In this document: positions 5,390 through 31,805 of the stretch, piece by piece | How positions within the stretch are numbered: position 1 is the stretch's first letter | Layout of the letters: each line of letters starts with the position of its first letter | Assembly (NCBI GenBank): GCA_024275315.1 | Contig: JAJRZK010000047.1 | Location: 1 to 34,141, forward strand | Length of the DNA stretch: 34,141 nucleotides | Reading direction: 5' to 3' | Origin: Nitrospirota bacterium | GTDB lineage: Bacteria > Nitrospinota_A > UBA7883 | Made by a program: the position numbers and the translations under genes | Notes under the pieces: model-generated | The model's database searches: none | What the model was told of the DNA's origin: nothing | What the model saw: only the letters and a program-made list of their open reading frames with translations

Positions 5390-5575
5390 ATGAAGACGAT
5401 ATTTCTGGTTGTCGGTGTTGTCATGATTCTGGAGGGCATCCCGTATTTCACAATGCCCGAGCAGGTAAAATCCATCGCCGAAAAAATCATGGTGACGGAT
5501 AACCGTGTGTTGCGCGTTATGGGGTTTTCCCTGATGATGGGCGGGCTTGTCATGGTGGCGCTGTTTCGGTCATGA
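5390..5575 (+). CDS. DUF2065 (YjeT-like) small membrane protein
   Basis: A 61-residue protein starting MKTIFLVVGVVMILEG and ending in a second hydrophobic helix (VLRVMGFSLMMGGLVMVALF). Two membrane helices, the EGIPYF-P pattern after the first and the NRVLR..G motif before the second match the DUF2065/YjeT family (about 60-65 residues), whose function is unknown. An in-frame start at 5285 would add 35 residues, but those are not family-like and the downstream ATG gives the normal length. The stop overlaps the next start (ATGA at 5572-5575), so the two genes are translationally coupled. In other bacteria yjeT sits next to hfl genes; here it does not. Confidence 0.8.
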   Translation: MKTIFLVVGVVMILEGIPYFTMPEQVKSIAEKIMVTDNRVLRVMGFSLMMGGLVMVALFRS

Positions 5576-6459: not shown

Positions 6460-6548
6460 GAGCGTATGGTAATAGCTTGCCAGCCGACTCACCTTTTGAG
6501 ACAATCAGGCAAGCAAGATAATCTGTCATAACAAAGGTTCAAAAGCCC

Positions 6549-6845: not shown

Positions 6846-6846
6846 C

Positions 6847-7884: not shown

Positions 7885-8048
7885 CCCCCGCTCCTGGTTG
7901 TTTTCTTGATCCGTTATCGCCCGCATCCGGACACAGGCGGCCAGGGCCCATGAACAACCCGAATATTCCTGATAAAATCCTTTCGTTTATATTAACATCA
8001 CTGTATTTTACAGATTACCTTTAACAAACCACAGGTTGCGCCGGGATC

Positions 8049-9884: not shown

Positions 9885-9956
9885 CAAATGCGCAAAGCAA
9901 CCAATAGTTGACTGGACGCCCATCGTGCAGTAGCCTTATCATCCTTTAGAATCCAT

Positions 9957-11615
9957 ATGAAAAAAACAGTAGAGCGAACCATAAAAAAAGCGTTCTTCGC
10001 CCTGGCGAAGAACGAAGGCTGGACACTGCAAATGGCGGGTGGACAGGTGGGGGTGACCGTCCCGAAGGATGAGAGCCATGGCGATTTCTCGTGCAACCTC
10101 GCGATGATTCTCGCCGCGAACACAAAAACCAAACCGCGCGTCATCGCCGAGAAACTCTCCAGGCAACTCGCCGGCAACGGCCTGTTCTCCTCTGTCTCGG
10201 TGGCGGGACCCGGTTTTATAAACATGACCGTGCACCCGGACCACTGGGCCGCCGCGCTGGACCAGATTTTCACGGCGGGAGAGGATTTCGGCAGAATCAG
10301 CGTCGGCCATGGGGAAAAAGTGATGGTGGAGTTCGTCTCCGCAAACCCCACGGGACCGCTCCATATCGGCCACGGCAGGGGCGCCGTCGTGGGGGACACG
10401 CTTGCCCGCATCCTGTCATGGGCCGGATATGACGTTCATAGCGAGTACTACATAAACGATGTGGGGTTGCAGATGGACAACCTGGGCCAGTCCACCCTGG
10501 CAAGATGCAGGGAGCTTTTGGGCCAGCCCGCAGGAGAGCTTCCATACAAGGGGGATTATATCATAGACATAGCCCGTCAATTTCTTGAAGCGAATGGCGA
10601 GCGGATCATGGAAGCTCCGTTGGAGGAGTCGCTTGCAAAAGCCAGAAAATTTTCCGCCGACAAAATCCTCGATGGTATCCGCTCCGATCTTGAAGAGTTC
10701 CGGGTCGGGTTTGACGAGTGGTTTTCCGAAGCGACCCTTCATGACAGCGGCGAGGTGGAAAAAACCATAAACCAGCTCCAGCGGAAGGGGCATATCCGCG
10801 AGGAAGACGGGGCGTTATGGCTGAAAACCGGAAGCGCGGGGGATGAGAAAGACCGGGTGGTGCGCCGCGCCAACGGAGTCACCACCTATCTCGCCGCCGA
10901 CCTGGCGTATCACAAGAGTAAAATTGACAGAAAATACTCCATGCTGGTCAACGTGTGGGGCGCAGATCATCACGGATATGTTCCCCGAATGAAAGCCGCC
11001 GTTTCGGCCCTGGGGCATGATCCTGAAAAGCTCATCGTACGGCTGGTCCAGCTTGTCAGCCTCAAGCGGGGCGGCCAGACGGTGGCCATGTCCACGCGCG
11101 AGGGGGTTTTTACAACCCTGCGGGAGATACTCGACGAAGTCGGGGTGGACGCGACCAGGTACTTTTTCCTTATGCGCTCTTCGGACAGCCAACTGGAGTT
11201 CGACGTGGAGCTTGCAAAACGCCACAGTAGCGACAACCCTGTTTACTATATCCAGTACGCCCACGCCAGGTGCTGTAACATTTTTGTAACCGCAAAAGAA
11301 ACCGGCGTTAAGCGGATACCCTTCGACCAGGTCGACAAATCCCTTTTGACCGGCGGGGACGAGCTTCGCCTGATAAGAAAGCTTCTCATGCTTCCAGACG
11401 TGGTGGACGCATGCGCCCGGTCCTGCCAGCCTCATCCCGTAACCGGGTACCTGACCGAGGTGGCCGCGTTTTTTCACTATTTCTACAAGCACAACCGGGT
11501 GGTGACCGACGACGAGCCGCTGACCCACGCCAGGTTGGCCCTGGTGGAGGCCACGATGATGGTCATCAGGAACGGTCTTGAGATATTGGGAATAGACGCG
11601 CCAAGGAAAATGTGA
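9957..11615 (+). CDS. argS: Arginyl-tRNA synthetase
   Basis: 552 residues, normal for class Ia ArgS. The N-terminal Add-1 domain is followed by VEFVSANPTGPLHIGHGRGA with the HIGH motif at 136-139. The KMSKS counterpart is VAMSTREG in the second half, a normal form for this enzyme. The C-terminal anticodon-binding domain ends GLEILGIDAPRKM, typical of the family. It charges tRNA-Arg with arginine in the cytoplasm. A moderate sigma-70-like pair (TTGACT 9908-9913 and TAGCCT 9931-9936, 17-base spacer) lies just upstream. The SPOR gene follows after 15 bases, an arrangement seen in several proteobacteria. Confidence 0.97.
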   Translation: MKKTVERTIKKAFFALAKNEGWTLQMAGGQVGVTVPKDESHGDFSCNLAMILAANTKTKPRVIAEKLSRQLAGNGLFSSVSVAGPGFINMTVHPDHWAAALDQIFTAGEDFGRISVGHGEKVMVEFVSANPTGPLHIGHGRGAVVGDTLARILSWAGYDVHSEYYINDVGLQMDNLGQSTLARCRELLGQPAGELPYKGDYIIDIARQFLEANGERIMEAPLEESLAKARKFSADKILDGIRSDLEEFRVGFDEWFSEATLHDSGEVEKTINQLQRKGHIREEDGALWLKTGSAGDEKDRVVRRANGVTTYLAADLAYHKSKIDRKYSMLVNVWGADHHGYVPRMKAAVSALGHDPEKLIVRLVQLVSLKRGGQTVAMSTREGVFTTLREILDEVGVDATRYFFLMRSSDSQLEFDVELAKRHSSDNPVYYIQYAHARCCNIFVTAKETGVKRIPFDQVDKSLLTGGDELRLIRKLLMLPDVVDACARSCQPHPVTGYLTEVAAFFHYFYKHNRVVTDDEPLTHARLALVEATMMVIRNGLEILGIDAPRKM

Positions 11616-11630
11616 TATCTGCTGTAATAC

Positions 11631-12326
11631 ATGACAAAGAGAAAAAAGAGACCATCGGAATTCACATTTTCCAGCAACCAGTTGGGTCTGCTGGTGGGTT
11701 GTGTCGCGGCGATAGCCTTATTGGCTTTTCTCATGGGGTACGGTTCCGGCAAGGTATACAACAAGAAAGTGTCGTCGCCGCAGGAGACGACCGCCGCCGA
11801 CACCGATTCCGGCGTGCCCCCACGCAAACAGATCGATCCTGGCGCGGTAAAGATGGAGACCAGCGCGGCTGTCCCTGCCGTGGACAGGTTTACGTTCAGC
11901 GAAAAACTTCAGCACGAGACCGCGCCCGCGACAGCTTCGCTTCCGACCGGATCGGCGCCGGAGCCGCCGCAAAAACCTGAAAGCAAACGCGCGCCGACTC
12001 CGCCAGCTCCCGAAAAACCCGTGGCGGTGAAAAAATCAAAACCCGCAAGGAAAAAAGCAGCGTCTCCGGCAGAACGTGGCGTCAAATCGAAAAAAATCAC
12101 TATCCAGGTGGGATCGTTCAAATCCAGGAAGGACGCCGACGCGCTGGTTTCCAGGCTTTCCAAGGATAACTACAACGCCTATGTGACGCTATTTAATCTT
12201 AAAGGATCCACATGGTACAGGGTGCGGGTGGGTGTCTACGAAACCGCCGCCATAGCCAACAGGGTGGCCGCCAAGCTCGAACACGACCATCACCTGCCGG
12301 TGTTGATCGTAACGTACAAAAAATAG
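11631..12326 (+). CDS. SPOR-domain membrane protein
   Basis: 231 residues: a short Lys/Arg-rich cytoplasmic N-terminus, one membrane helix (about 18-38, QLGLLVGCVAAIALLAFLMG) and a long Pro/Ala/Lys-rich linker. A C-terminal SPOR domain (about 157-231) begins ITIQVGSFKSRKDADALVSRL and contains WYRVRVGVYETAAIANRVA. SPOR domains bind glycan strands stripped of peptides, typically at the division septum, so a role in cell division or envelope remodelling is likely. It follows argS closely and precedes a DUF4149 gene by six bases, so the three form an operon. Confidence 0.87.
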   Translation: MTKRKKRPSEFTFSSNQLGLLVGCVAAIALLAFLMGYGSGKVYNKKVSSPQETTAADTDSGVPPRKQIDPGAVKMETSAAVPAVDRFTFSEKLQHETAPATASLPTGSAPEPPQKPESKRAPTPPAPEKPVAVKKSKPARKKAASPAERGVKSKKITIQVGSFKSRKDADALVSRLSKDNYNAYVTLFNLKGSTWYRVRVGVYETAAIANRVAAKLEHDHHLPVLIVTYKK

Positions 12327-12332
12327 CGGGCC

Positions 12333-12812
12333 ATGATCGCGATCGCCCAATATATTCACCTTTTATCCATTTGCGTCTGGATCGGATCGATGGTGTTTTT
12401 CTCGTTTATCGGCGCCCCCGCCATTTTCAGAACCCTCGACAAGAAAGCGGCGGGAGACGTGGTGGGCGTTATATTTCCCAAATACTACATGACAGGCTAT
12501 GTATGTTGCGCGCTGGCTCTGCTGTCGCTCGGGTGGATGGCGACGAAAACCGGGGAGAGCGTGTCTGTCAGGGCCGGTTTCGCCCTGTTGCTGGTTATGG
12601 GGGGCGTAACCATTTATTCCGGCGGACCGCTCCACGGCAAAGTGGTGGCCATAAAGCGCCTTATCCGCGAGGAGAAAGACGAATCCAGGCTCGCCCCGCT
12701 CAAAAAAGAATTCGGAAAAACGCACGGGATTTCCGCCGCCCTGAACATGTTTACGCTGGCGCTGGGGCTGGGGCTGGTTTTCGTGGCGACCAGGTATATT
12801 TCCCTGCCGTAG
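12333..12812 (+). CDS. DUF4149-family integral membrane protein
   Basis: 159 residues with four predicted membrane helices. The start IAQYIHLLSICVWIGSMVFF and the internal PKYYMTGYVCCALALLSL match the DUF4149/TMEM205-like family (HxxxxxxWxGxxxFFxxxxxPxxF, later FPxYY). The function is unknown. It begins six bases after the SPOR gene stop, so it is cotranscribed, and ends 21 bases from the stop of the convergent phosphatase gene. A charged loop (KRLIREEKDESRLAPLKKE) lies between helices three and four. Confidence 0.75.
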   Translation: MIAIAQYIHLLSICVWIGSMVFFSFIGAPAIFRTLDKKAAGDVVGVIFPKYYMTGYVCCALALLSLGWMATKTGESVSVRAGFALLLVMGGVTIYSGGPLHGKVVAIKRLIREEKDESRLAPLKKEFGKTHGISAALNMFTLALGLGLVFVATRYISLP

Positions 12813-12833
12813 CAGGGCTTGGCGGTCCGTTTC

Positions 12834-13406
12834 CTATAACAATCGAAAATCCACCTTTCCTGCGCTCTCGAACACCAGGTGGAACACGTCGTCTATCCCG
12901 ATCGTCACAGGCTGGCTCGCGCTGCAACCGGCGAACCTGCGCAAAATGGTCTCGATAACACCGTAATGGGTTATCACCAGGATAGTGGCGCCGTTGTCGC
13001 GCTTAAGCCGCATGTTGATAAACCGCTCTGTCCTGCGGGTAAGATCATCTCCCGACTCACCATCCGGATATGATTTGCCGGTGTCGGCCTTGTGGCGCAG
13101 AATCAGCGGCATTATTTCGTCCTTCAACCGGCCCGTGTACCGGCCAAAATCGATTTCCCGCAATTCGGCCAGGTATCTGGCCCGGGGCAGGTATGGAAGT
13201 TTTTCGGCGATAAGCTCCATCGTGCGCCTGGCGCGGCCGATATCCGAGCAGTAGACTTTCGATATGTTGAAACCGCGTATTTTCTCCGCCATGCTGTAGC
13301 ATGCCGCGATACCATCGCAAGACAGGGGCGAATCCCCATGGCCCTGGACGACGCCTTCCAGGTTCGCCTCTGTTTGGCCGTGTCGCAACAGAAGAACCTC
13401 GAGCAT
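12834..13406 (-). CDS. Histidine phosphatase family protein (phosphoglycerate mutase/CobC-like)
   Basis: 190 residues. LLRHGQTEANLEGVVQGHGD at the N-terminus carries the catalytic RHG (residues 8-10) and the family pattern RHGxTxxN. LREIDFGRYTG supplies the conserved Glu region, and ILVITHYGVIETILR the second active-site histidine. These are cytoplasmic phosphomonoesterases with a phosphohistidine intermediate. Members of this size include alpha-ribazole phosphatase (CobC) and broad sugar-phosphate phosphatases. No cobalamin genes are nearby, so the specific substrate is unknown. It begins 53 bases downstream of the cytochrome c peroxidase gene on the same strand, so they are probably cotranscribed. 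Confidence 0.85.
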   Translation of the reverse strand: MLEVLLLRHGQTEANLEGVVQGHGDSPLSCDGIAACYSMAEKIRGFNISKVYCSDIGRARRTMELIAEKLPYLPRARYLAELREIDFGRYTGRLKDEIMPLILRHKADTGKSYPDGESGDDLTRRTERFINMRLKRDNGATILVITHYGVIETILRRFAGCSASQPVTIGIDDVFHLVFESAGKVDFRLL

Positions 13407-13459
13407 TTATCCCCAAAAACACTTGTTCCAAAAACGGACGGCCTGAAACGCCCGAAGGC

Positions 13460-14485
13460 TCAGCCGCGATCCGGTTTCGGAGTGGATTTACCCGACGCCG
13501 GAAGTTTCGGCAACACGATATCCGGCAAATCACCCATAAGTGAATCAAAAAACGCCAGAATGTCGCCCACCTCCTCGTCCGTGAGCTTTGCTCCAAGCTG
13601 TGTCCATCCCATGATACGAACCACCTCGCCCAAATCCCACACATTCCCATCACTGAAATAGGGATACGTAAGAGTAATATTCCTCAGCGATGGAACTTTG
13701 AAGACGTGCATGTCATCCTTGTCTCCGGTCACCCCGAACCGACCTTTGTCCGTCAGGTTTTCCGGAGTGTTAACCACACCGAATTGCTGATATGACCCGC
13801 CGCCCACCACCACGCCGTTATGGCACCCGGCGCACCCGCTATCCATAAAAGTCCGTAAACCTTTTTTCTCCCTGGCGGTAAGGGCCGATTCATCGCCCTT
13901 CAGAAACTTGTCGAACCGGGACGGTGTAAGCAGGGTTCGTTCGAAAGCGCCGATGGCGTTGGCGATGTTTTCGTAATTCATCGGTTTCTTCTGCCCCGCA
14001 AACGCCCTGGAAAAACGCTCGACATACTCCGGAATGGATAATAACCGCGCCATTACAAGTTCTTTGGTGGCGGCCATCTCCACATCAGCCAGGATCGGTC
14101 CCTGCGCCTGGGCTTCAACATCCCTCGCGCGGCCATCCCAAAACTGGGATATATGCAGAGCGGCGTTCCATACCGTCGGAGCGTTGCGTCCACCCACTTT
14201 CCATTGGTGGCCGGTGGAGAGGGTGTTGTTATCCACTCCGCCACCCGCCAGATTATGGCAGGAGTTGCAGGAAAAAACGTTGGACTTAGAAAGGCGCGTC
14301 TCGAAATAGAGCATCTTGCCAAGCTCCAGTTTTTCGGGATTACCAGGGTTTCCCGCTTTAAACACAGGCTTTTCAGGCAAAGGGGCGAATGTATCTTTCG
14401 CGTCTTCCAACAGACCGGCAAAAGCAAATGTGGGCGCGATTACGCTCGCAACAAAAATAAAAATGAATCTTCGCATGCCTATCAT
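13460..14485 (-). CDS. Dihaem cytochrome c peroxidase (CcpA/MauG family)
   Basis: 341 residues from the ATG at 14485, which has AAGG five bases upstream; an ATG at 14476 is an alternative and an ATG at 14590 adds residues before the signal peptide. The signal peptide (RRFIFIFVASVIAPTFAFA) is followed by a peroxidase domain with two haem sites: CNSCH at C73-H77 and CAGCH at C218-H222. Family landmarks include LGKMLYFETRLS, WDGRARDVEAQAQGP and VPSLRNITLTYPYFSDG. Bacterial dihaem peroxidases reduce hydrogen peroxide in the periplasm with electrons from small c-type cytochromes. A strong sigma-70 promoter lies at 14543-14570. The protein fits the cytochrome-rich physiology and may protect the haem proteins. 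Confidence 0.92.
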   Translation of the reverse strand: MIGMRRFIFIFVASVIAPTFAFAGLLEDAKDTFAPLPEKPVFKAGNPGNPEKLELGKMLYFETRLSKSNVFSCNSCHNLAGGGVDNNTLSTGHQWKVGGRNAPTVWNAALHISQFWDGRARDVEAQAQGPILADVEMAATKELVMARLLSIPEYVERFSRAFAGQKKPMNYENIANAIGAFERTLLTPSRFDKFLKGDESALTAREKKGLRTFMDSGCAGCHNGVVVGGGSYQQFGVVNTPENLTDKGRFGVTGDKDDMHVFKVPSLRNITLTYPYFSDGNVWDLGEVVRIMGWTQLGAKLTDEEVGDILAFFDSLMGDLPDIVLPKLPASGKSTPKPDRG

Positions 14486-14542
14486 CCCCGCCTTAAATAA
14501 GTTCAGAACATTTCCATAATATAGACTGATTCTACAATGCGT

Positions 14543-14570
14543 ATTATACGCTCTTCGCGGCTTTTGTAAA
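14543..14570 (-). promoter_or_regulatory. Sigma-70-type promoter for the cytochrome c peroxidase gene
   Basis: On the minus strand TTTACA (14570-14565) is separated by 16 bases from a perfect TATAAT (14548-14543), giving a start near 14536 and a leader of about 50 bases to the ATG at 14485. The -10 box lies inside the near-palindrome GCGTAT-T-ATACGC (14540-14552), which could serve as an operator. Confidence 0.6.
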
Positions 14571-14814
14571 CAGTATGTATGACGAATCAACCGCCGATGG
14601 AGAACTCACGGGGCGGTCAACATTTACCAATTCCCTATCACACATAAAGCTCATCGACCAGGTCATGCTCTTTGGCATTTTGCCGGTGGCGTGATATTCT
14701 TCATTCATGGCAGGAAGATTTCCTGTGACACAGTTTAACAACCGGCGCAGTTCAACAACTCCTGTTGCGGGTGTATCTGATCACAATTAACAACAGAACT
14801 CATCGACCGTCGCA
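14571..14814. other. Intergenic region between divergent ccp and tsaE
   Basis: No credible gene is visible in the 329 bases between the two start codons. A 65-codon minus-strand ORF at 14544-14741 has no recognisable family features. Besides the ccp promoter, the region holds a short perfect inverted repeat CAGGAA-GAT-TTCCTG (14711-14725). A clear promoter for tsaE was not found. Confidence 0.5.
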
Positions 14815-15282
14815 ATGTCCGCCTTACGCGAAGTATGTATAACCACCAGCTCACCAGATCAGACACGCAAGGCAGGCGCCAGCCTGGGGCGGAACCTGGA
14901 GACGGGGGATATGGTCTTTTTGACAGGTGACCTGGGAACCGGCAAAACCGTGTTCACCCAGGGGTTGTGCCATGGTCTTGGTGTCGATGAAAACGTGATC
15001 GTGCGTTCCCCCTCGTTTGCCATTATCAATGAATACACAGGATCACGCCTGGTGCGCCATGTGGACCTTTATCGTGTGGAAAGCGATGATGAGCTCGAGA
15101 CCGTCGGAATCTTCGATTCAGGCCGGGAGAGTGTGACAATCATCGAATGGGCCGACAAGCTGAAAAGCACCCGTCCATGGAGCAGAGGGATAGCTGTGAC
15201 GATAACGGACCTGTCCGAAACCCAACGGGAGATCAGGATAAAGGGCCCGGAAGAGAAGCTTGAAAACCTCCCGACACGCTGA
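14815..15282 (+). CDS. tsaE: tRNA threonylcarbamoyladenosine biosynthesis ATPase TsaE
   Basis: 155 residues with the Walker A motif GDLGTGKT (38-45), the SPSFAIINEYTG segment and VRHVDLYRVESDDELETVGI, all characteristic of TsaE (YjeE). With TsaB and TsaD it makes the t6A modification at position 37 of ANN-decoding tRNAs in the cytoplasm. TsaB and TsaD are not in the window. The IIEWADKL segment is the family's (E)WxE-like motif region. It precedes lptC by about 55 bases. No good Shine-Dalgarno is visible before the ATG, so the start rests on family length. Confidence 0.93.
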   Translation: MSALREVCITTSSPDQTRKAGASLGRNLETGDMVFLTGDLGTGKTVFTQGLCHGLGVDENVIVRSPSFAIINEYTGSRLVRHVDLYRVESDDELETVGIFDSGRESVTIIEWADKLKSTRPWSRGIAVTITDLSETQREIRIKGPEEKLENLPTR

Positions 15283-15320
15283 ATCATCCACCGATACCCA
15301 TTTACAAAAGCAACTGATTA

Positions 15321-15335
15321 TGGCACACTAATTGC
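15321..15335 (+). promoter_or_regulatory. Sigma-54-type -24/-12 promoter at the start of the lpt-rpoN operon
   Basis: TGGCAC (15321-15326), five bases, then TTGC (15332-15335) matches the sigma-54 consensus TGGCAC-N5-TTGC at all ten core positions, with GG and GC at the correct spacing. Transcription would start near 15346-15348, just inside the apparent lptC start at 15338. It would therefore serve lptA-lptB-rpoN and later genes rather than full-length lptC, unless lptC starts further downstream. Confidence 0.55.
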
Positions 15336-15337
15336 CT

Positions 15338-15904
15338 ATGGCCTATTCGCTCATAAGAATTCGCATATTGCTGGCATTTGGCATTGTTCTTGGCGTGGCT
15401 GTCATATTTTGGAACATATATTCATCCAATACCGATAAAACCACTGATTTAACATCGGTTATATTGAGCCCTGAGTTGGGCATGAACATGGAGGGGGTAC
15501 ACCTGTTCGAGAAGAAGAACAACGATAACGTTCTGGAGATCAAAGCCGAGATGGCCTCCATATCGGCTGACGAATCGAGTACGGAGCTGACAAATTTCAC
15601 CCTGATATCCCACTCCCAGGATTCCGGTCCGGTCACAATCGTCGCCCGGAAAGGGGTTATAAACAACAAGACAGAGAACATGACGGTAACAGGCAATGTC
15701 CTCGTACGGGACTCCAAGGGCCGCGCCCTGATAACCGATACGCTTCACTGGAACAGTTTTGACGAGCAAATCAGCACCGATGACCAGGTCTGGATATTCG
15801 GGGACCGGTTTACGGTTCGCGGCCGGGGCATGTTGGCGGAGATGGAGACGGAGCGGGTCACAATCATGAATGACGTAACAGCCACATTCCGGGAGACCAA
15901 ATGA
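15338..15904 (+). CDS. lptC: LPS export system periplasmic protein LptC
   Basis: About 188 residues from the ATG at 15338; a TTG at 15332 would add two. An N-terminal anchor helix (IRILLAFGIVLGVAVIFW) precedes a periplasmic OstA/LptC-fold domain with repeated short strands, for example LTNFTLISHS, then NKTENMTVTGNVLVRDSKG and RALITDTLHWNSFDEQISTD. LptC links the LptB2FG ABC transporter to LptA and hands lipopolysaccharide across the periplasm. Order (lptC-lptA-lptB-rpoN) and length agree with the family. The stop overlaps the lptA start by four bases. The start is uncertain because a near-perfect sigma-54 promoter overlaps it and no good Shine-Dalgarno is seen. Confidence 0.88.
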   Translation: MAYSLIRIRILLAFGIVLGVAVIFWNIYSSNTDKTTDLTSVILSPELGMNMEGVHLFEKKNNDNVLEIKAEMASISADESSTELTNFTLISHSQDSGPVTIVARKGVINNKTENMTVTGNVLVRDSKGRALITDTLHWNSFDEQISTDDQVWIFGDRFTVRGRGMLAEMETERVTIMNDVTATFRETK

Positions 15905-16452
15905 GAGCAACGGTTATAGCGCTGGTTTTGGCCTTTGCGATTCCTGTGGCGGCGCTGGCGAAGGAGAAGTCTCTTTTTACGGAAGATGATTCCGACAAGA
16001 AAGCCCCCCTGAAAGTCACCTCCGACAAGATGGTCACCAACAACAAGGAGAACAAAATCGTCTTCACGGGGTCTGTGGTGGCCGTAAAGGGGAAGCTTAC
16101 CGTGGAATCGGACAAACTGACTGTGTGGACTGACGAGGACCAGACCGATTTTACAGAGATATTGGCCGAAGGGGCTGTGAAAATCGTCCGGGGAAATAAA
16201 ATCGCGACGGGCAAAGTGGCCCATTACTATTCCGCCGACAAGAAAATAGTGCTCACCGGCGATCCTGTTTTAAAAGACGGCAAGGATATCGCCACCGGCA
16301 ACCGGGTGATCTACTTTTTCGATCGGGAAGATATGGTGATAGTGGGAAGCAAGAAGAAACGATCGAGCGTAGTGCTGTTTCCAAAGAAAAAGGAAAAAAA
16401 GGGAAAAGAGCTTAAAAAACGTAAATCCTCCAGATCGGACAGCCAGCCATGA
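15901..16452 (+). CDS. lptA: LPS transport periplasmic protein LptA
   Basis: 183 residues with a signal peptide ([20 protein letters not shown], cleavage after about 20). An OstA-type beta-jellyroll follows: [20 protein letters not shown], then [40 protein letters not shown] and [20 protein letters not shown]. LptA forms the periplasmic bridge carrying lipopolysaccharide from LptC to LptD. The C-terminus has an unusually basic tail of about 30 residues ([18 protein letters not shown]), which may bind nucleic acid or acidic lipid, or simply be disordered. It overlaps lptC and lptB by four bases on each side. Confidence 0.93.
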
Positions 16453-17177
16453 CGAGAACATTGCGAGCGTATAACCTGGTCAAATCGTACAAGGGGAGGC
16501 GTGTTGTGGATAATGTCTCGTTTAGCATGACCAACAAGGACATCGTCGGTCTGCTGGGCCCCAACGGCGCGGGCAAGACTACGACATTTTACATGACGGT
16601 AGGGCTCACCCGCAGTGATTCCGGCTCCGTGTTTCTCGACGATCAGGAAATAACACACATGCCGATGTACCAGAGAGCCCGTATCGGCATCGGTTATCTT
16701 CCCCAGGAGCCTTCCGTGTTACGGAAACTGACGGTGTTTCAAAACATAATCGCCATACTGGAGACCCTGCCCTACACCCGGCACGAGAGAGAAAAAAAAG
16801 CCAACGAGCTTCTGGACGAATTCGGTATACTGCATCTGTCCAAAAACATGGCCCTGTCGTTGTCGGGCGGGGAGAGGCGGAGGCTGGAGATCGCCCGCGC
16901 CTTATCGGCAGAACCTTCGTTTATCCTGCTGGACGAGCCGTTCGCCGGCATAGACCCTATCGCCGTTACGGAAATACAGAATATCGTTCTGCAACTGCGC
17001 GAACGGGAAATAGGCATCCTCGTCACCGACCATAACGTGCGCGATACCCTGGGTATCACGGACATGGCCTATATTCTTAGTGAGGGACAGATACTCGAAA
17101 AAGGAACTCCGGAGAAAATAGCCAACAGCGAGCAGGCCAGAAATATTTATTTGGGCAAGGATTTTTCGTTAAAATAG
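16449..17177 (+). CDS. lptB: LPS export ABC transporter ATP-binding protein LptB
   Basis: 242 residues, the usual length. Walker A is GPNGAGKTT (37-45), the Q-loop lies in [14 protein letters not shown], the signature is [17 protein letters not shown], Walker B is [12 protein letters not shown], and the switch histidine is in [10 protein letters not shown]. LptB energises extraction of lipopolysaccharide from the inner membrane with LptF and LptG, which are not in the window. It overlaps lptA by four bases and precedes rpoN by 33 bases, as in many Proteobacteria. Confidence 0.97.
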
Positions 17178-24335: not shown

Positions 24336-25598
24336 TCAGAATTTGTAACCGGCGTAGAGGAAAAAAGTCATCGTGCTGAACTCGTCCGATTCCTTGGCCA
24401 GGTATATCGAATCCACGTCCAGATATTTCTCGTTGGACATCTCCACCTTGCCGGAGACGTATATCGCGGGAGACAGGTACCAGTCCAGCGACCCTTCGTA
24501 TATGAACTGCGTCATGGAAGTGTCGGAGTTGTCCTGTTCGCTTTGCATGTACGTGGCCCCGAGCTCGGCTGTTATTTTTTCCAAGTTGACCCCGAACGAT
24601 CCGTGCGCCTGCTGGGCGGTGGAGGTAAAATAATTGATCGATCTGTAGGAGAGGTCGAAAAAGGCTATCCGGAACAGGTTCGACTGCTTGAATCCCACGA
24701 GCATCAGCGAAGCCGATTTGCTGTCGCTTTCCCTTGTCCTGGCGTCCACCCTGCCGTACAGCTTCGAGGTCTTGGAAAACTTCATATACCCCGACAGCCT
24801 GATGGTGGATTGCAGGTCGTGATTGATATCGTAATCCATCGACTCGTAAAGCTTGACAGCCCTGTACTGGTTGAATGTAATCCCCAGCCTTGTCCGCCAT
24901 TGCGAGTGGAGGTTGAGGCTGACCATCAGGTTTGTCAGCTCGTAGCTTCCCGTGTCCACATTGTGGTCGCTACGCAGGTTCACATACATCGACATGTTTT
25001 TCGAGGGTACCAGGTGGCCGTTGAAAGAGGCGTACGTCGTGTCCTCCGATCCCTTGAACAGGCTGGAAACATAACCCGCGCTCATGCCCAGCGCGGGGCT
25101 GTTGGTAAAAAAGTACGCGCCGTATGTCATGTAGTCGCCTGTAAACTTGTCTTCATACGGATCCGGCTGCTGGCCGGCGAAAACGCCTATCCCGGTCGCT
25201 TTACCCATATACAACTTGATATTTGCGCCATCAACGCGGGCGCCTCCTATCTCGCCTATGTACGATCGGCCAAGCTGCATATCGATAAAGGAGAAAATTT
25301 TCTTTATCTCCACGTTGGCGTAATAGATGCGGTCGTTGGGGGTGGAGGTGTTAAAATCGTTCTGGCTCGAGGAGCGTAACGACCCGCTGAAATGGCAATA
25401 CACATCATCCCCGGCGAATTCAGACGCGTCGAACTTCAGGCGAAACCTGGTAATCGCCGCGTCCTGCTCTGAAGCGCCTCCATCGTAATTGTACATGGAG
25501 CCGGAAAAGCTTCCACGCAGGTTCACCGCCTGCACAGGCTCCGGCGCGTACAGGCAGGCTATCAAAAGCGCAACGGTGGATATACGCCTTAATCGCAC
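24336..25598 (-). CDS. Putative outer-membrane beta-barrel, probable porin partner of the multihaem cytochromes
   Basis: 420 residues from a GTG start with AAGGAG eight bases upstream, inside the end of the 36-haem cytochrome gene (10-base overlap). A signal peptide (RRISTVALLIACLYAPEPVQA) precedes about 400 residues of alternating polar and hydrophobic strands such as LRGSFSGSMYNYDG, DVYCHFSGSLRSSS, then ATGIGVFAGQQPD and SMYVNLRSDHNV. It ends MTFFLYAGYKF, the C-terminal aromatic signature recognised by the BAM complex. I do not recognise it as MtrB, OmbB or a named porin. Overlap with a multihaem cytochrome gene and the upstream lipoprotein cytochrome suggest it is the barrel that lets a cytochrome wire cross the outer membrane. 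Confidence 0.7.
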   Translation of the reverse strand: MRLRRISTVALLIACLYAPEPVQAVNLRGSFSGSMYNYDGGASEQDAAITRFRLKFDASEFAGDDVYCHFSGSLRSSSQNDFNTSTPNDRIYYANVEIKKIFSFIDMQLGRSYIGEIGGARVDGANIKLYMGKATGIGVFAGQQPDPYEDKFTGDYMTYGAYFFTNSPALGMSAGYVSSLFKGSEDTTYASFNGHLVPSKNMSMYVNLRSDHNVDTGSYELTNLMVSLNLHSQWRTRLGITFNQYRAVKLYESMDYDINHDLQSTIRLSGYMKFSKTSKLYGRVDARTRESDSKSASLMLVGFKQSNLFRIAFFDLSYRSINYFTSTAQQAHGSFGVNLEKITAELGATYMQSEQDNSDTSMTQFIYEGSLDWYLSPAIYVSGKVEMSNEKYLDVDSIYLAKESDEFSTMTFFLYAGYKF

Positions 25599-28342
25599 GT
25601 TACAATCTCCTTGGCGTCGTCAAAGGTGACCGTGTTATGGCACAAAGAGCAAGCCTGGGGACACGGAGACGCCGCCGGACTGCCGTTTGCGTGTTCCTTG
25701 TAATAGTCCGCCTGATGACACGCAGAGCAGTCGCTTTCCGATGAGGCCGGATATAAAAGCTGGTAGCTGGTCCCCGTGTGGCACAGGCTACAACTCCCCT
25801 GAATAGCCGCATGGGAGCCGGAAAAAGTCATCGATGTATGGGAATACCCGGACGCAGGCGTCCAGCCGTATTGCTTGTGGCAATCCTGGCATTCGGTGTT
25901 CGACGGGCTGTGTATGCCGGTGGACGTGGCGCTGAAAAAGTCTGTCTTGTGGCAGGTGTAGCAGTCCACGGGGGTGTTCCGGTAATCCCTGTTCTTGTGA
26001 CAATTCTGGCACTCGGTGGAGCGATGGGCCCCTTCCAGCCGAAACCCCGTCTCGCTGTGGCGGAACTTCAGCGGCTCCCAGGAGAACGCGGAATGACAAT
26101 CCGAGCACAACGATCCGAACTGGGTCAAATGCGGATCGACATGGCACTGGATGCAATCTTCGCCGGGCGGGAGAGACATATCCTTCGACTTGTGGCAGTC
26201 TTTGCATTTCTGCTGTTTATGAACACCTTCAAGCCTGAACCCGGTGGCCTCGTGGGCGAACTTGTCGGTCTTCCAGGACTCGGCGTTATGACAGTCGCCG
26301 CACCTTTTCCCGAGCGTTCCCTTGTGCTTGTCCTCTTTGGCGTGACAGTCGTAACATCTGCTTTTCACAGGTTTCCACACCTTGCCGACATGGCACTTTT
26401 CGCATTTCGCCTTGACGTGTTTGCCGTCCAGGTCGAACGAGGAATCCCTGTTATGGTCAAACGTCAGCTTTTTCCAGTCTTCCTCTGTGTGGCACCTGTC
26501 ACATTTCTTGTCTTTCAAGGTTCCTTTGTGCGGATCCTTGTGGCAGCTTGACGAAGCGCAACTCTTCGTATTCAGCGGCTTGTACTTCACCTGGCCCAGG
26601 AGGCTCTTCTTGTGGCAGTCCGCGCACTTTACCTTGGCGTGTTTTCCCTTAAGCTTATACCCCTTGTAACGGGTGGAGCCGTGCTTGAACAGCGACGGTT
26701 TCCATCCGCTCTCGCTGTGACAGCTTGCGCACAGCTGGCCGGAGAACTGTTTGCCGTGAATGGCGCCCCGCTTTTTGGTGTCGTGACATCCGGAGGAATC
26801 GCACCGGGTATAGTCGATCGGCCTGTACTTGACCTCTTTCTTGAAATCGGACCTGTGACACTTGTCACACTTTGCCTTCTTGTGGAGCCCCAGCAGTTTG
26901 AACCCTTTGTAGCGCTTGTCCTCGTGTTTGAACAGAGACGGTTTCCACCCTGCGACGGTATGGCACTCGTCACACTTTCTTCCGGAGAACTGTTTGCCGT
27001 GGACAGCCCCTCCCCTCCTGGCGTCGTGACAGCCGGATGTGTTGCAGGTGTCATATTTGGCGACTTTGTAGACCCCTTTCTTCGCCTGCGGATGGCATGT
27101 TTTGCACTTGGCTTTCCTGTGCTTGCCTTCGAGGCGGTATTTGGTCCTGTTATGGTCGAACTTGACGCCTTTGCCCTTCCAGGTGGAGGTATCGTGGCAC
27201 TTGTCGCACTTGTCGCCGAGCGATCCCTTGTGGATATCGTCTTTCTTGTGACAGGTGACACACTTCTGGTATTCCGGAACCTTGTACAGGCCCTTGACCT
27301 TGTGACAGTCCTTGCACTTTACCTTGGCGTGGCCCCTCTCGAGCTTGTAGACCTTGTTGTGGTCGAACCTGACATATTTGCCTTTCCAGCTTGTCGCGTT
27401 ATGGCAGGTTTCGCACTTGTCGCCGAGCGTGGTCCTGTGAACGTCGTCTTTCTTGTGACAGGTGACGCACTTCTGATATCCCGGAACCTTGTACTGACCC
27501 TTGACCTTGTGACAATCGGCGCATTTCACCTTGGCGTGGCCCTTCTCGAGTTTGTACGCCTTGTCATGGTCGAATTTTACGTACTTACCTTTCCAGCTAA
27601 CCGTGCCGTGACACTTGTCGCACTTGTCGCCGAGCGATCCCTTGTGCACGTCGTCTTTTTTATGGCAGGTGACGCATTTCTCGAATCCCGGCTCCTTGTA
27701 ACGCCCCTTGACCTTGTGACAATCAGCGCATTTTACCTTGGCGTGGGCGTTATCGAGCTTGTACGCCTTGTTATGGTCGAACTTGACGTCCTTGCCTTTC
27801 CAGCTTGAAGCGTTGTGACACTTGTCGCACCTGTCGCCGAGCGACCCTTTGTGAACATCGTCTTTTTTGTGGCAGGAGACACATCCGCTGTCCGCCAGCA
27901 GAAAGCTGGGCTGGCCCCTTTTTGTTTTCCCCTTGTGGCAGTCTTCACATTTTGTCTTGCGGTGTTTGCCGTCAAGTTTGTAACCGGTGTTCTTTTGGCC
28001 ATGGTCGAATTTTTCCTTGTTCCATTCGATCATGGAAAACTTCAACCCTTTGTGGTCCGAATGGCATTTGAAACACTGCTTGCCGGTGACGGTGGAGTGA
28101 TATCCGCGTTTGGAGGCGATCCTGGATTTTATATCCTCGTGACATTCCAGGCATTTCGAGTCCGGCAGACCGCCCGTGAGAGCGTGACACTTGGCGCAGT
28201 TGGTGATCCCCTCTATTTCCTTGTGGAGCGACGAAAGGTCACCAGGGCTGATCAGCTTGCCAAGACCCTGCGCGTGGACATTGGCGCTGACCCCTATCAC
28301 AAGCGCCATCGCCAGGATTAACCTAGATAACAACGAATCCAA
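25589..28342 (-). CDS. Large modular multihaem c-type cytochrome (36 predicted haem sites)
   Basis: 917 residues. A TTG at 28342 or 28333 is the start (GAGGGGGG just upstream); the signal peptide is about residues 1-24 (AMALVIGVSANVHA end). I count 33 CXXCH sites plus three CX4CH sites (CNTSGCH at C433, CDSSGCH at C514, CASSSCH at C595), about one haem per 25 residues. Four near-identical 69-72-residue modules (starting C154, C223, C292, C361) each hold three haems and repeat CVTCHKKDDVHKGSLGDKC, a WKGKxVKFDH segment, then HAKVKCADCHKVKG. Two 81-residue modules follow (C433, C514) opened by CX4CH. The rest is a looser series with GFRLEGxH-type linkers. Extra histidines (FDH, VHKG, GHAK) recur at fixed places and can be the second axial haem ligands. 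The many lysines make it very basic. Lacking a lipobox, it is most likely periplasmic, threading a barrel or forming a wire. It sits between a 12-haem lipoprotein and an outer-membrane barrel. Confidence 0.88.
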   Translation of the reverse strand: MDSLLSRLILAMALVIGVSANVHAQGLGKLISPGDLSSLHKEIEGITNCAKCHALTGGLPDSKCLECHEDIKSRIASKRGYHSTVTGKQCFKCHSDHKGLKFSMIEWNKEKFDHGQKNTGYKLDGKHRKTKCEDCHKGKTKRGQPSFLLADSGCVSCHKKDDVHKGSLGDRCDKCHNASSWKGKDVKFDHNKAYKLDNAHAKVKCADCHKVKGRYKEPGFEKCVTCHKKDDVHKGSLGDKCDKCHGTVSWKGKYVKFDHDKAYKLEKGHAKVKCADCHKVKGQYKVPGYQKCVTCHKKDDVHRTTLGDKCETCHNATSWKGKYVRFDHNKVYKLERGHAKVKCKDCHKVKGLYKVPEYQKCVTCHKKDDIHKGSLGDKCDKCHDTSTWKGKGVKFDHNRTKYRLEGKHRKAKCKTCHPQAKKGVYKVAKYDTCNTSGCHDARRGGAVHGKQFSGRKCDECHTVAGWKPSLFKHEDKRYKGFKLLGLHKKAKCDKCHRSDFKKEVKYRPIDYTRCDSSGCHDTKKRGAIHGKQFSGQLCASCHSESGWKPSLFKHGSTRYKGYKLKGKHAKVKCADCHKKSLLGQVKYKPLNTKSCASSSCHKDPHKGTLKDKKCDRCHTEEDWKKLTFDHNRDSSFDLDGKHVKAKCEKCHVGKVWKPVKSRCYDCHAKEDKHKGTLGKRCGDCHNAESWKTDKFAHEATGFRLEGVHKQQKCKDCHKSKDMSLPPGEDCIQCHVDPHLTQFGSLCSDCHSAFSWEPLKFRHSETGFRLEGAHRSTECQNCHKNRDYRNTPVDCYTCHKTDFFSATSTGIHSPSNTECQDCHKQYGWTPASGYSHTSMTFSGSHAAIQGSCSLCHTGTSYQLLYPASSESDCSACHQADYYKEHANGSPAASPCPQACSLCHNTVTFDDAKEIVTCD
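27047..27883 (-). repeat. Tandem repeat of about 207 bp within the 36-haem cytochrome gene (four copies)
   Basis: Copies begin at 27883, 27676, 27469 and 27262 on the minus strand (207, 207, 207 and 216 bases) and encode the 69-72-residue three-haem modules. The nucleotide sequence is still very similar between copies, so the repeat is either recent or kept uniform by recombination. Copy number could vary between strains. Confidence 0.8.
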
Positions 28343-28434
28343 CCCCCCTCGAAATACCGGATTTGCAGTTGAGCGTCAAATCAGTAGCGCATGGTAGCGC
28401 ATCTCCGGTTATATTAAAATAACAATTTCAAACA

Positions 28435-28465
28435 AACGCGCCGGAATTCCCCGTCCCGGCGCGTT
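28435..28465 (-). terminator. Rho-independent terminator between the two multihaem cytochrome genes
   Basis: AACGCGCCGG (28435-28444) and CCGGCGCGTT (28456-28465) form a perfect 10-bp stem with an 11-base loop. Read on the minus strand it is followed by the T-rich TTTGTTTGAAATTG. It lies 32 bases after the stop of the 12-haem gene and about 90 bases before the start of the 36-haem gene, so it may leave only part of the transcripts to run on. Confidence 0.65.
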
Positions 28466-28496
28466 ATCCTACAGAAGAATCCTCTCGATATACGAA

Positions 28497-29480
28497 TCAG
28501 TCGTAATCATCACGATGATCGTCGCCTCCTCCCTCATCACCATGGCCATCGCCGCTGTGGCAGGCGTTGCAGGCGCTGGAGTTGACCCTGGAATGGCTGT
28601 ACGACCAGCTTATGCCGGATGTGTGGCACCACTCGCAAGCGTAACCGGAGTAATGCCTGCTGTGACAGCTCGAACATCCGGTGCTGATTCCCGTATGGTC
28701 CATACCGGTGGCGGCGCTCCAGCTCGGGTATGTGTGGCAGTTTTCACACGTGTCGCCGTAGTGGTTGGCAGGCTTGCTACCCGAATGGCAGGACGAACAC
28801 CCGGAAGTGTATGTGTGCCCACTTGCGGCGCCGCTCCAGCTCGGGTATGTGTGGCAGCTTTCACACGTATCGCCATAATGGTTCGCAGGCTTGCTGGACG
28901 CGTGGCACGACGAGCACCCTGAAGTGTATGTGTGTGAGCCTCCGCTCAATCCCCACGAGCCGCTGGAGTAGGTGTGGCAGTTTTCGCACCCGCTGTTCCT
29001 GCCGTCGCTGTGGCTGGACGGCTCTCTTCCGGAATGGCACGTGGCGCAGGATGTGGAAACGGCGCTGTGCCATTCGGTATGCGACACTCTCAAATGTGAT
29101 CTGAAATTATCTGAATAGTGGCACGAGTTGCAATATGTGTCCATCCCTGTGGTGGTGTGGTTGGGCAGTGATGTCGAGTTATAGTTTCCAGCGTGGCAGG
29201 TATAGCAGATTTCATTCGCCGCCAGTTCCCTGTTGCCGGCAGAAGCGCCCTTGGTGCGGGCGGTGGATGTGTGGCAGTTGTCACATGAATACCGGGTGTG
29301 CGAACCGACCAGGTATGAATCGTGCCAGCTCGTGTCCGGGGTCAATCCTATCTTGCTCAGGTCCGAGGAGCCACCGCCACCGGAGCTCGTGGTATCTTCA
29401 TTGGTACAACCGGCTATACCCGCTATGACGAGCAAACCCAGAAGAAGCGTATAGCAGACGAACCTGTTGTTTGACATCAT
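28497..29480 (-). CDS. Dodecahaem lipoprotein c-type cytochrome, probably surface-exposed
   Basis: 327 residues with a lipoprotein signal peptide (FVCYTLLLGLLVIAGIAGC, lipidated Cys at about residue 25) followed by TNED and a Ser/Gly linker. Twelve CXXCH sites follow, including paired repeats: SHTYTSGCSSCHASSKPANH with YGDTCESCHTYPSW is repeated after 39 residues. At DNA level the 117-bp copies lie near 28721 and 28838. The protein is rich in Ser, Tyr, Thr and Gly and poor in Lys, unlike its basic neighbour. That composition is common in extracellular cytochromes such as the outer-surface Omc proteins of Geobacter. The C-terminus is a His/Asp/Gly tail (GDGHGDEGGGDDHRDDYD) that might bind metal ions. 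Two ATGs (29480, 29477) follow AAGGGA; the first is better spaced. A sigma-54-like element lies about 115 bases upstream. Confidence 0.87.
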   Translation of the reverse strand: MMSNNRFVCYTLLLGLLVIAGIAGCTNEDTTSSGGGGSSDLSKIGLTPDTSWHDSYLVGSHTRYSCDNCHTSTARTKGASAGNRELAANEICYTCHAGNYNSTSLPNHTTTGMDTYCNSCHYSDNFRSHLRVSHTEWHSAVSTSCATCHSGREPSSHSDGRNSGCENCHTYSSGSWGLSGGSHTYTSGCSSCHASSKPANHYGDTCESCHTYPSWSGAASGHTYTSGCSSCHSGSKPANHYGDTCENCHTYPSWSAATGMDHTGISTGCSSCHSRHYSGYACEWCHTSGISWSYSHSRVNSSACNACHSGDGHGDEGGGDDHRDDYD

Positions 29481-29787
29481 CCCATTTTCCCTTGCTGTTT
29501 ATACTTGACTTTATATTTCACTTTTTATTTCACTTCAAGCATTATTGAACCATCCGCCGACATACCGGCGTGAGATATGCTATCAAGCTTGTTAAGCATT
29601 CTGTGTGCCAGTTTGGCGAAATAGAGTTCGATTAACATTTGCGACAGCATATTCTCTCTCAACATATTGATATTACAGGATAAAAGCAATGAATATCTTT
29701 GGCGGGAACCGGGTGGTTCTCTGTTTTACAGCCCCGTGACAATATGACAATATGCGTCCTTTTTCAGGACGGATACAGGATAGGTGT
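29481..29787. other. Divergent intergenic region between the cytochrome locus and the SpeE-like gene
   Basis: 307 AT-rich bases without a gene. It carries the sigma-54-like element on the minus strand. It also has T-rich stretches near 29505-29535 that would lie in the leader of the cytochrome transcript. No clear plus-strand promoter was found. Confidence 0.6.
29596..29610 (-). promoter_or_regulatory. Sigma-54-like -24/-12 promoter upstream of the multihaem cytochrome locus
   Basis: Read on the minus strand, TGGCAC (29610-29605), five bases, ATGC (29599-29596) fits the consensus TGGCAC-N5-TTGC at nine of ten core positions with the GG and GC pairs correctly spaced. It would start transcription near 29585, leaving a leader of about 105 bases before the 12-haem gene. 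Confidence 0.5.
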
Positions 29788-31290
29788 ATGGTAATAGAAC
29801 ATACTGAAAAGGTTAACCTGCGTCAGGCCGGAAAGTGGCGGGAGGAGGCGATCCTTTTTCTCGCGGGGATTTGCCTGATCATGCTCCAGTTTTTCATGAT
29901 CCGGGAGATAACCGCACTTCTGCTGGGCACGGAAATCGTTATTTTCATTGTCACGGTCTCATATTTTCTGGGATATTCGGTCGGTTATTACATGGCAGGC
30001 GTATTGACGACGGGGAATGTCCGGAAGCTGGCGCCCTTTTTCTGGATGATCCATCTGACCATGCCCTTTTCGCTTCGATATCTGTCCGGATTTGCCATGC
30101 TCCGCACTCCTCTGGTCGCTCTTGTTTTGCTAACGTTCATAATGGTCTTTGTCCTGTCTTCCTTTTTCTCCATATTGCTCCCCCGGTTCGCAGACTCGCG
30201 CGGAGGCGACACAGGTTCGCTGGTCCGGTTGTACAGCGTGGAACTCGCGGGGGCGATCACTGGTGTTGTTATGGTATTGAGCCTGAATACGCACAATTGG
30301 GCGCAACCGATAGTTTACCAGGCGGCTTTTGGAGCGATTGTGGCCCTGCTGTGGGGCCGGCGCCTGGCGTGGGTCGCGACGATATCGGCGATCGCGGTTT
30401 ATTCCACCCTTTTCCCCCATTTGGAGGCGTATAGCCTCTCGTATCATTACAACACCGCTCATGACATCACCGACAGCTCGGTTTTGTACAGTGTCAACAG
30501 CCCCTACCAGAAAGTGGACATGATCCGGGCCGGTTCCGGTAGAAGGTACATTTTTTTGGACGGGAACCAGAATTATGGATCCGACTCTCTTAGAATTTTC
30601 AACAAATTCCTCTCCCGGCTCCCCGCGGCCCTCACCAGGCCCGGCCACGCGCTTATCGTTGGAGCGGGATCGATGCAGTCGCTCCGGTATGTGTCTCAAC
30701 TCGCAGGGAACGTGGATATCGTGGAGCTCGACGGCGCCGTTCCGGAAGGAAGCATGCGCCACATGGCCGACATAAACCTGCACGACAGAACCGATAACTG
30801 GAAACTGATTATCCAGGACGCCAGGAAGTTTCTGGGTGGGAAAGGAACGAAATATGACCTGATAATCATGGACGTGCCGGCTCCGCTCAACATCCAGGTG
30901 GGCCTGCTCCACTCCGTGGAGTTCTACAGGATGGCCAAGGGCAGGCTTTCGCCCGGTGGGGTTATCTCGGTATCGCTAAGTGGCCGGTTCCGTCCCGGAG
31001 CGAACACGCCGCAAACCGTGGCGGCGGCCCTGCTGAAAGTGTTCGACGACGTGGTGATCCTTACGCCCGACATAGCGGGGCGCAGTTTCGCCATCGCGGG
31101 ACGGAAAATCCCTTTCACCGATTACCAGTTGCGTTTTGCCGCGTCGGAGCAAGGGGCGCGCGAAACGATCATTTTCGACAGAGAGAAAATCGCGCGTATC
31201 GTGGGACAGACTCCACCCATTTCCCTGGACCACATCAGCTACCCGGTAAAACGAAGCTGGCGCAGGGTAAAGATACGGTACTTAAGATGA
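29788..31290 (+). CDS. Membrane protein with a C-terminal spermidine-synthase-like (methyltransferase-fold) domain
   Basis: 500 residues from the ATG at 29788 (AGGATAGGTGT upstream); an in-frame ATG at 29752 is less likely. About seven membrane helices fill 20-210. A cytoplasmic domain from about 225 then reads SPYQKVDMI, RRYIFLDGNQNY, ALIVGAGSMQSLRYV, VDIVELDGAV and KYDLIIMDVPAP, the order of motifs in spermidine synthases (SPYQ, LDG, GGGDGG, VELD, DSTDP). The nucleotide-binding GGGDG is GAGSM, and the second acidic residue of the catalytic DxxD pair is replaced (D362-V-P-A365). Aminopropyl transfer is therefore doubtful; it may be another SAM-dependent transferase or a sensor. The stop overlaps the next membrane gene (ATGA). 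It is transcribed away from the cytochrome locus, sharing its upstream region. Confidence 0.75.
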   Translation: MVIEHTEKVNLRQAGKWREEAILFLAGICLIMLQFFMIREITALLLGTEIVIFIVTVSYFLGYSVGYYMAGVLTTGNVRKLAPFFWMIHLTMPFSLRYLSGFAMLRTPLVALVLLTFIMVFVLSSFFSILLPRFADSRGGDTGSLVRLYSVELAGAITGVVMVLSLNTHNWAQPIVYQAAFGAIVALLWGRRLAWVATISAIAVYSTLFPHLEAYSLSYHYNTAHDITDSSVLYSVNSPYQKVDMIRAGSGRRYIFLDGNQNYGSDSLRIFNKFLSRLPAALTRPGHALIVGAGSMQSLRYVSQLAGNVDIVELDGAVPEGSMRHMADINLHDRTDNWKLIIQDARKFLGGKGTKYDLIIMDVPAPLNIQVGLLHSVEFYRMAKGRLSPGGVISVSLSGRFRPGANTPQTVAAALLKVFDDVVILTPDIAGRSFAIAGRKIPFTDYQLRFAASEQGARETIIFDREKIARIVGQTPPISLDHISYPVKRSWRRVKIRYLR

Positions 31291-31805
31291 ACACGATCTG
31301 GCCTGGTGTATACGCAACCCTGATGGGGATTCATTTCGCCCTGTTGCAGACCGGGTATTTCTTCGAGCTTCAAATCGGCCTGACCGCGGCGTATCCGAGC
31401 TTTATCACGGTTATTCTCTCATGGCTCGCCGGGAGCGTGATCGGGCTACGCGCAGGGCGGGGAGGCGCCGATTATTCTCTTTTACTGCATGTCGCCAGCC
31501 TGGCGGCTTATGGAGCATGCGTCCTTCTGCTCAACACATGGCCCTACCAGACGGGACTGTTGCCGCTTTACGCGGCGCTGATAATGGTGTCCGGAGCTCA
31601 GGCGGGTTATTTTTTCGCGGTGAACACCAAGCTTTTCAGCTCCGTATCCCGCCTGTTTCTTATGGAAAACAACGGCTTTGTCGCCGGTTGGATCATCGGG
31701 TTCTTCGGGTTTGTCGCGTTCGGCCATTCTTTCGACATTATTGGCCCCGCCACGATGGGAGCAGTGAGCGCATGGTTGATTTCCGGCCGGCCACGACCAC
31801 TTTGA
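31287..31805 (+). CDS. Integral membrane protein, likely partner of the SpeE-like protein
   Basis: 172 residues with about five membrane helices: YATLMGIHFALLQTGYFF, PSFITVILSWLAGSVIGL, LLLHVASLAAYGACVLLL, YAALIMVSGAQAGYFFAV and GWIIGFFGFVAFG. No family was recognised with confidence. The start MGIHFALLQTGYFFE and the glycine-rich helices resemble the C-terminal membrane half of spermidine-synthase-like fused membrane proteins, suggesting that such a protein is split in two here. The four-base overlap with the preceding gene supports a joint complex. An imperfect hairpin (CAGCTT-GGCTCA-AAGCTG, 31829-31846) follows without a T-run. Confidence 0.65.
   Translation: MNTIWPGVYATLMGIHFALLQTGYFFELQIGLTAAYPSFITVILSWLAGSVIGLRAGRGGADYSLLLHVASLAAYGACVLLLNTWPYQTGLLPLYAALIMVSGAQAGYFFAVNTKLFSSVSRLFLMENNGFVAGWIIGFFGFVAFGHSFDIIGPATMGAVSAWLISGRPRPL

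Follow-up and report, generated by a model that had tools for sequence, protein, structure and literature searches.

Porin-cytochrome conduits are already known from iron-cycling bacteria, and several kinds have been described to date. In the MtrCAB, MtoAB and PioAB systems a cytochrome is housed in a barrel and a surface cytochrome is optional, and the 20 haems of the Mtr complex carry electrons over 185 Å, or about 9 Å per haem (PMC7198977). Geobacter-type Pcc complexes (OmbB-OmaB-OmcB) combine porins of 18-22 strands with periplasmic cytochromes of 5-14 haems and a lipoprotein cytochrome of about 12 haems (PMC4245776). PCC3, put forward in 2017, combines a porin with very-many-haem cytochromes on both the periplasmic and the extracellular side and with a di-haem-b inner-membrane protein (PMC5566968; Gallionellaceae survey, PMC10734462). 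The latter protein is recognizable by SGxxG and two copies of the motif WX3HX13H (He et al. 2017, PMC5566968). The idea that a PCC3 cytochrome spans the periplasm has been raised in both of these studies, and in the literature searched we found no experimental test of it.

Nitrite oxidation in the sea is known from the Nitrospinota, and sulphur oxidation has been predicted for members outside Nitrospinia; a comparative genome study of the phylum (Kop et al., PMC10839748) does not mention porins or multihaem conduits. In this work we analyze a stretch of 34,141 nucleotides (the window, contig C39) from a 2.9 Mb Nitrospinota genome (G000), in which three adjacent genes had been read as an undescribed conduit for electron transfer across the outer membrane. 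Our results indicate that the arrangement is a putative fused variant of the known PCC3 kind, whose presence in Nitrospinota is unreported in the open-licence literature searched.

Results

Organization and conservation of the locus

Inspection of open-reading frames places three genes on the minus strand of the window, running from 29480 to 24336; in that order they encode a lipoprotein with 12 haem sites, an exported cytochrome with 36 and an outer-membrane barrel. The original prediction had located the same three frames and assigned them 12 and about 36 haems, and both the frames and, by motif count, the haem numbers proved correct. The cytochrome gene (25589..28342, minus strand) has a TTG start and encodes 917 aa with 33 CXXCH and 3 CX4CH sites. 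The barrel gene (24336..25598, minus strand; 420 aa, GTG start) begins 10 bp inside the end of the cytochrome gene and is preceded, 8 bases upstream, by its own AAGGAG ribosome-binding site (25607..25612, minus strand, by sequence reading) within the cytochrome gene 3′ end. An overlap of the same 10 bp recurs in relatives (L024, L028, L029). The overlap and the internal AAGGAG suggest that cytochrome and barrel are probably translationally coupled and made in a fixed ratio.

Of 23 phylum relatives searched, 19 have a homologue of the barrel; with the window's own genome this amounts to 20 Nitrospinota genomes. Wherever the contig permits a view, the cytochrome gene lies directly 5′ of the barrel gene, and all of the full-length Nitrospinota cytochrome homologues compared (12/12) present 30-42 haem sites with the barrel directly downstream; a shorter homologue in G008 has 18 haem sites. 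The synteny check suggested with the original prediction hence yielded a pair kept throughout the Nitrospinota class, in the same order and with overlap or near-abutment. Five other Nitrospinota loci (L129, L130, L131, L132 and L134, in G023, G018, G002, G001 and G019) encode MtrB-family porins, most of them adjoined by a decahaem cytochrome gene, and these are separate from the giant-cytochrome system.

The host genome contains dsrA above cut-off and haem-copper oxidases, as determined by profile searches, and narG, used as a proxy for nitrite/nitrate metabolism, returned no match above cut-off and weak generic ones alone; on these grounds the host appears to be a Nitrospinota member that respires and metabolises sulphur. 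Elsewhere in the window, positions 3009-4487 (plus strand) encode a 492-aa membrane-anchored multihaem cytochrome, NapC/NrfH-like by eye at its N-terminus and a possible quinol-side electron carrier, and positions 13460-14590 (minus strand) a MauG-type di-haem cytochrome c peroxidase.

A giant cytochrome of composite make-up

The cytochrome has a predicted signal peptide cleaved between SANVHA and QG. Its 36 haem sites are spaced at 24.8 residues per haem, equally dense as the 25.1 of MtrA (PMC7399161). The mature protein contains exactly 72 His, twice the number of haems; 36 of these fall in haem motifs, and the 36 spare His would be enough to serve as distal ligands for bis-His ligation of all 36 haems. 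Across 13 homologues the His count is 0 to 6 above twice the number of haems; with one exception (32), the haem number itself is 30, 33, 36, 39 or 42, which points to three-haem steps. Pfam Cytochrome_C7 matches the protein in 11 stretches (E 1.4e-41). The DmsE/MtrA-family profile TIGR03508 scores 34 bits against a cut-off of 192, so that the cytochrome is not of the decahaem MtrA type; a PDB sequence search with the cytochrome returned no match, and an AlphaFold2 model of the 917-aa protein was unusable (pLDDT 39.5).

To locate the two ends of the protein relative to PCC3-like cytochromes, two type profiles were used, derived from seven 20-haem (periplasmic) cytochromes and from seven second (porin-side) cytochromes. 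The first 110-150 residues score 101-110 bits with the periplasmic type and 20-21 with the porin-side type. The corresponding N-terminal part (27893..28342, minus strand), comprising the signal peptide, an ISPGDLS motif and the first haems, matches the 20-haem periplasmic cytochrome of PCC3-like clusters. The last 230 residues instead favour the porin-side type (95/59, 79/59, 67/38 and 39/20 bits), and the C-terminal 217 residues (25592..26242, minus strand), with 9 haems, match the second cytochrome of the same clusters. The latter region is Lys/Arg-poor and Ser/Thr/Ala/Gly-rich: Lys+Arg falls from 23% in the rest of the protein to 8%, and small residues increase. Lys+Arg likewise falls toward the C-terminus in all 13 homologues, and the same difference in Lys+Arg separates the periplasmic from the porin-side cytochrome where the two are distinct proteins. 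Seven other single-chain homologues display a similar N-to-C gradient of type, less clean in some of them. Both profiles match the repeats in the middle, which leaves the boundary blurred. The single chain, with its periplasmic-type start and porin-side-type end, is thus a putative fused variant of two PCC3-like cytochromes, an assignment that relies on repetitive sequence scoring partly with both profiles. Single-chain cytochromes also occur outside the phylum, in two genomes (L043, L122).

A barrel related to cytochrome-associated porins

The barrel protein has a signal peptide, a C-terminal Phe and no haem motif, and its AlphaFold2 model, computed empty with 18 homologues, predicts 22 beta-strands (pLDDT 86). 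It has no match in Pfam or NCBIfam, a PDB sequence search with its profile found none, and Foldseek with the model returned generic large barrels alone, the FimD usher first (TM about 0.5, 10% identity). Profile-profile comparison with hhalign was more informative. The barrel aligns over its full length with porins of PCC3-like clusters (99.7%), matches porins of Geobacter-Pcc-like clusters at 98.6%, and reaches 84% with the porin that lies beside 23- and 76-haem cytochromes in L126; the value for MtrB is 1.4%, and for five further controls, of which four are annotated as outer-membrane barrels or an exporter, it is below 1%. The Geobacter-Pcc-like set includes the L125 cluster, which we take to be of that type from its gene order (porin, 8-haem cytochrome, lipoprotein) and its resemblance to it. 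The barrel is hence a likely remote relative of PCC3-like and Geobacter-Pcc-like porins, and the three groups would constitute one barrel superfamily apart from MtrB, a profile link that appears to be new within the open-licence literature searched.

The profile check against Mtr families that accompanied the original prediction gave a consistent outcome: in addition to the 1.4% hhalign value and the sub-threshold TIGR03508 score, PF11854 (MtrB/PioB), which does detect MtrB-family porins in relatives, has no match in G000. The barrel was accordingly rejected as an MtrB homologue on the basis of the Pfam, PDB, PF11854 and hhalign results. The statement that none of the components resembles known ones has to be revised in view of the remote relationship of the barrel to PCC3-like and Pcc-like porins.

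PCC3-like clusters in other phyla

Outside the phylum, the barrel profile identified 21 further genomes among 385 searched. Taking all sets together, a multihaem cytochrome adjoins the barrel in 35 of 37 neighbourhoods from several phyla, the other two lying at contig ends. In many of the outside neighbourhoods the barrel is accompanied by two cytochromes, one with 20 to 23 haems and the other with 10 to 40 or more, and by a di-haem-b inner-membrane protein; an FAD/2[4Fe-4S] oxidoreductase is often present too. These predicted clusters fit the published PCC3 description (PMC5566968, PMC10734462). The L126 cluster (4897-16708) encodes an oxidoreductase-di-haem-b fusion of 753 aa and a 550-aa porin, together with two cytochromes, one with 23 haems and the other with 76 haems in 1934 aa. 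A second barrel cluster in G178 (L119, 10986-14543) includes a cytochrome with at least 49 haems and ends at the contig end.

A plasmid search with the oxidoreductase-di-haem-b fusion led to plasmid pEMTOL02 of Emticicia oligotrophica (Bacteroidota; L153, NC_018749.1), which encodes di-haem-b protein, oxidoreductase, 23- and 40-haem cytochromes and barrel, and which could in principle carry the whole predicted PCC3-like trait. The plasmid, 100 kb long, also encodes CcsA, for cytochrome c biogenesis. No plasmid match was obtained with the window barrel or an L125 barrel as query. On a Sphingobium plasmid the di-haem-b protein matches, and a candidate 612-aa protein has no match to the barrel profile.

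The probable di-haem-b inner-membrane partner

The Nitrospinota di-haem-b protein has the same two WX3HX13H motifs and SGxxG as its PCC3 counterpart. In the window's genome it is encoded on another contig (G000:C42:71517-72404, with motifs WLDLHMFLGIVGAVLITAH, WHVFHKPLAVMMFIVMFLH and SGLVG), where it adjoins an FAD/2[4Fe-4S] oxidoreductase gene and is not linked to the cytochrome-barrel pair; several sister-family (f6) genomes have the gene beside the pair. Strong di-haem-b matches are confined to barrel-bearing genomes (18/5/0/37 in 60 genomes; Fisher 3.6e-11, kinship ignored), and outside the phylum they number 3/3 versus 0/33. The protein was searched for and not found in four genomes (G007-G010), one of them estimated 100% complete; it is therefore not indispensable, and another inner-membrane donor must serve there.

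An accessory 12-haem lipoprotein

The lipoprotein gene (28497..29480, minus strand) encodes a 327-aa cytochrome of outer-membrane type, with a lipobox (IAG/C, Cys at residue 25) and 12 CXXCH motifs. The gene lies beside the cytochrome-barrel pair in G000, G001, G005 and G006, the relatives in G001 and G005 being 46-54% identical, and a distant relative does so in G016; copies away from the pair occur in G002, G005, G007 and G011, and elsewhere in the Nitrospinota set the protein is unlinked or absent. The lipoprotein is thus a putative accessory, variably present, and its inclusion among the parts of the conduit in the original prediction must be narrowed to the window's own family and, more distantly, G016. 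Divergently from the lipoprotein gene starts that of a 512-aa spermidine-synthase-like integral membrane protein (29752-31290, plus strand), paired with a 172-aa membrane protein (31287-31805, plus strand). The same pair, 41-55% identical, adjoins lipoprotein relatives in G002 (L163), G005 (L161) and G007 (L156), away from any barrel, and therefore appears to form a second conserved partner module of the lipoprotein.

Discussion

Comparison with described conduits

The Nitrospinota locus resembles PCC3 in combining a porin and a very-many-haem cytochrome with few residues per haem, and the genome also encodes a di-haem-b protein. The barrel is profile-related to porins of PCC3-like clusters, including that of the 23/76-haem cluster, in a comparison that covered the PCC3-like clusters identified in this work. 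The two arrangements differ in that PCC3 employs two cytochromes, a periplasmic one of about 21 haems and an extracellular one with a median of 34, whereas here one chain bears 30-42 haems; in the barrel, here of 420 aa and 22 strands; in the inner-membrane gene, which belongs to the cluster in PCC3 and is unlinked in the window's family, though linked in f6; and in the giant extracellular cytochrome, in place of which a 12-haem lipoprotein is found here. Porin, giant cytochrome and di-haem-b protein were already described together as PCC3 in 2017 (PMC5566968), and the locus is better read as a fused form of that kind than as an undescribed system.

With Geobacter-type Pcc the locus shares a lipoprotein cytochrome of about 12 haems and a barrel that, at 22 strands in the AlphaFold2 model, falls within the reported range, but it differs in gene order and in the 36 haems of its cytochrome versus 5-14; the porin homology, likely remote, refers to the set including L125, itself assigned to this type by gene order and resemblance. 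The principle of a cytochrome in a barrel is also that of MtrCAB, MtoAB and PioAB, but MtrB has 26 strands and is paired with 10 haems, against 22 strands and 36 haems here, and the barrel is not of the MtrB family. PCC_1 of Candidatus Manganitrophus likewise joins porin and multihaem cytochrome in a lithotroph; it differs in being dodecahaem and is reported to be restricted to Manganitrophaceae within Nitrospirota (PMC9040806).

Proposed mechanism and alternative explanations

We regard it as reasonably probable that the locus encodes a PCC3/Pcc-type porin-cytochrome conduit whose periplasmic and barrel-side wires are joined in one polypeptide. The conduit reading of the original prediction is sustained by the co-occurrence of the barrel with multihaem cytochromes and by its profile relationship to cytochrome-associated porins. 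In such a conduit the 36-haem protein would be exported by Sec, and its lysine-rich N-terminal two thirds would reside in the periplasm and take or give electrons at the inner membrane, probably via the unlinked di-haem-b protein and its FAD/iron-sulphur partner; the FAD/NAD(P)-type nature of the latter would permit exchange with the pyridine-nucleotide pool. Inserted into the 22-strand barrel or passing through it, the C-terminal haems would exchange electrons with the surface in one direction or the other; there the lipoprotein with its 12 haems, if present, would enlarge the contact area. The oxidases in the genome are compatible with electron uptake as well as export. We infer the insertion of the C-terminus in the barrel, the continuity of the haem chain, the surface exposure of the lipoprotein, the direction of electron flow and the substrate, which may be Fe or Mn minerals, humics, electrodes or partner cells.

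Placed in line at Mtr spacing (MtrA measuring about 80 Å for 10 haems), 36 haems would reach 29-33 nm by arithmetic, not structure, and therefore far enough for periplasm and outer membrane together. The earlier notion of a single wire through both draws support from the apparently fused make-up of the cytochrome. Counting against the proposed conduit are the 22-strand barrel, narrower than MtrB's 26, and the location of the di-haem-b gene, which is not beside the pair in the window's genome and family. We put forward only tentatively, as a possibility with less than even prospects, the broader proposal that one 30-42-haem polypeptide leads from the inner membrane through periplasm and barrel to the surface, taking over the roles of CymA-side carriers, of MtrA and, in part, of MtrC, and that this is an ancestral trait of a whole Nitrospinota class not yet regarded as electroactive.

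The giant cytochrome might conversely be wholly periplasmic, as a long bridge or electron store, with another cytochrome, such as the 12-haem lipoprotein or an unlinked one, crossing the barrel. The lipoprotein gene next door in the window's family and the proposal of large cytochromes as capacitors (PMC7399161, PMC10734462) speak for this possibility, which we nonetheless hold to be unlikely: in most of the class the lipoprotein is not beside the pair, giant cytochrome and barrel alone are always together, and the cytochrome C-terminus shifts in composition and type as expected of a barrel-side part. Still less probable is a role of the barrel as an export pore through which cytochrome or lipoprotein would be secreted as an extracellular wire or filament. 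Its nearest Foldseek folds are indeed large export barrels such as the FimD usher, and other bacteria are known to have multihaem cytochromes that polymerise (OmcS, OmcE, OmcZ), but the resemblance to FimD is generic, genes for an usher plug or a chaperone were not seen, and the related porins sit in clusters read as electron conduits. A lack of co-occurrence with cytochromes had been named beforehand as fatal to the conduit, and clearly does not apply. That a barrel without family match might be a solute porin lying beside cytochrome genes by chance we consider highly implausible and have rejected, as it is contradicted by the adjacent cytochrome in 35/37 neighbourhoods across several phyla (the remaining two at contig ends), by the gene overlap, and by the relationship of the barrel to cytochrome-associated porins and not to other barrels.

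Implications for the Nitrospinota

The combination of porin and giant cytochrome (PCC3, 2017) and the thought of a cytochrome spanning the periplasm were known already; what appears to be new, within the open-licence literature searched, is their predicted presence throughout a Nitrospinota class and the apparent fusion of two wires. The fused cytochrome makes for a simple two-gene object on which to test whether a single protein suffices to wire the Gram-negative envelope across its full width and, if true, a class-wide conduit would add extracellular electron exchange to the ecology of the Nitrospinota.
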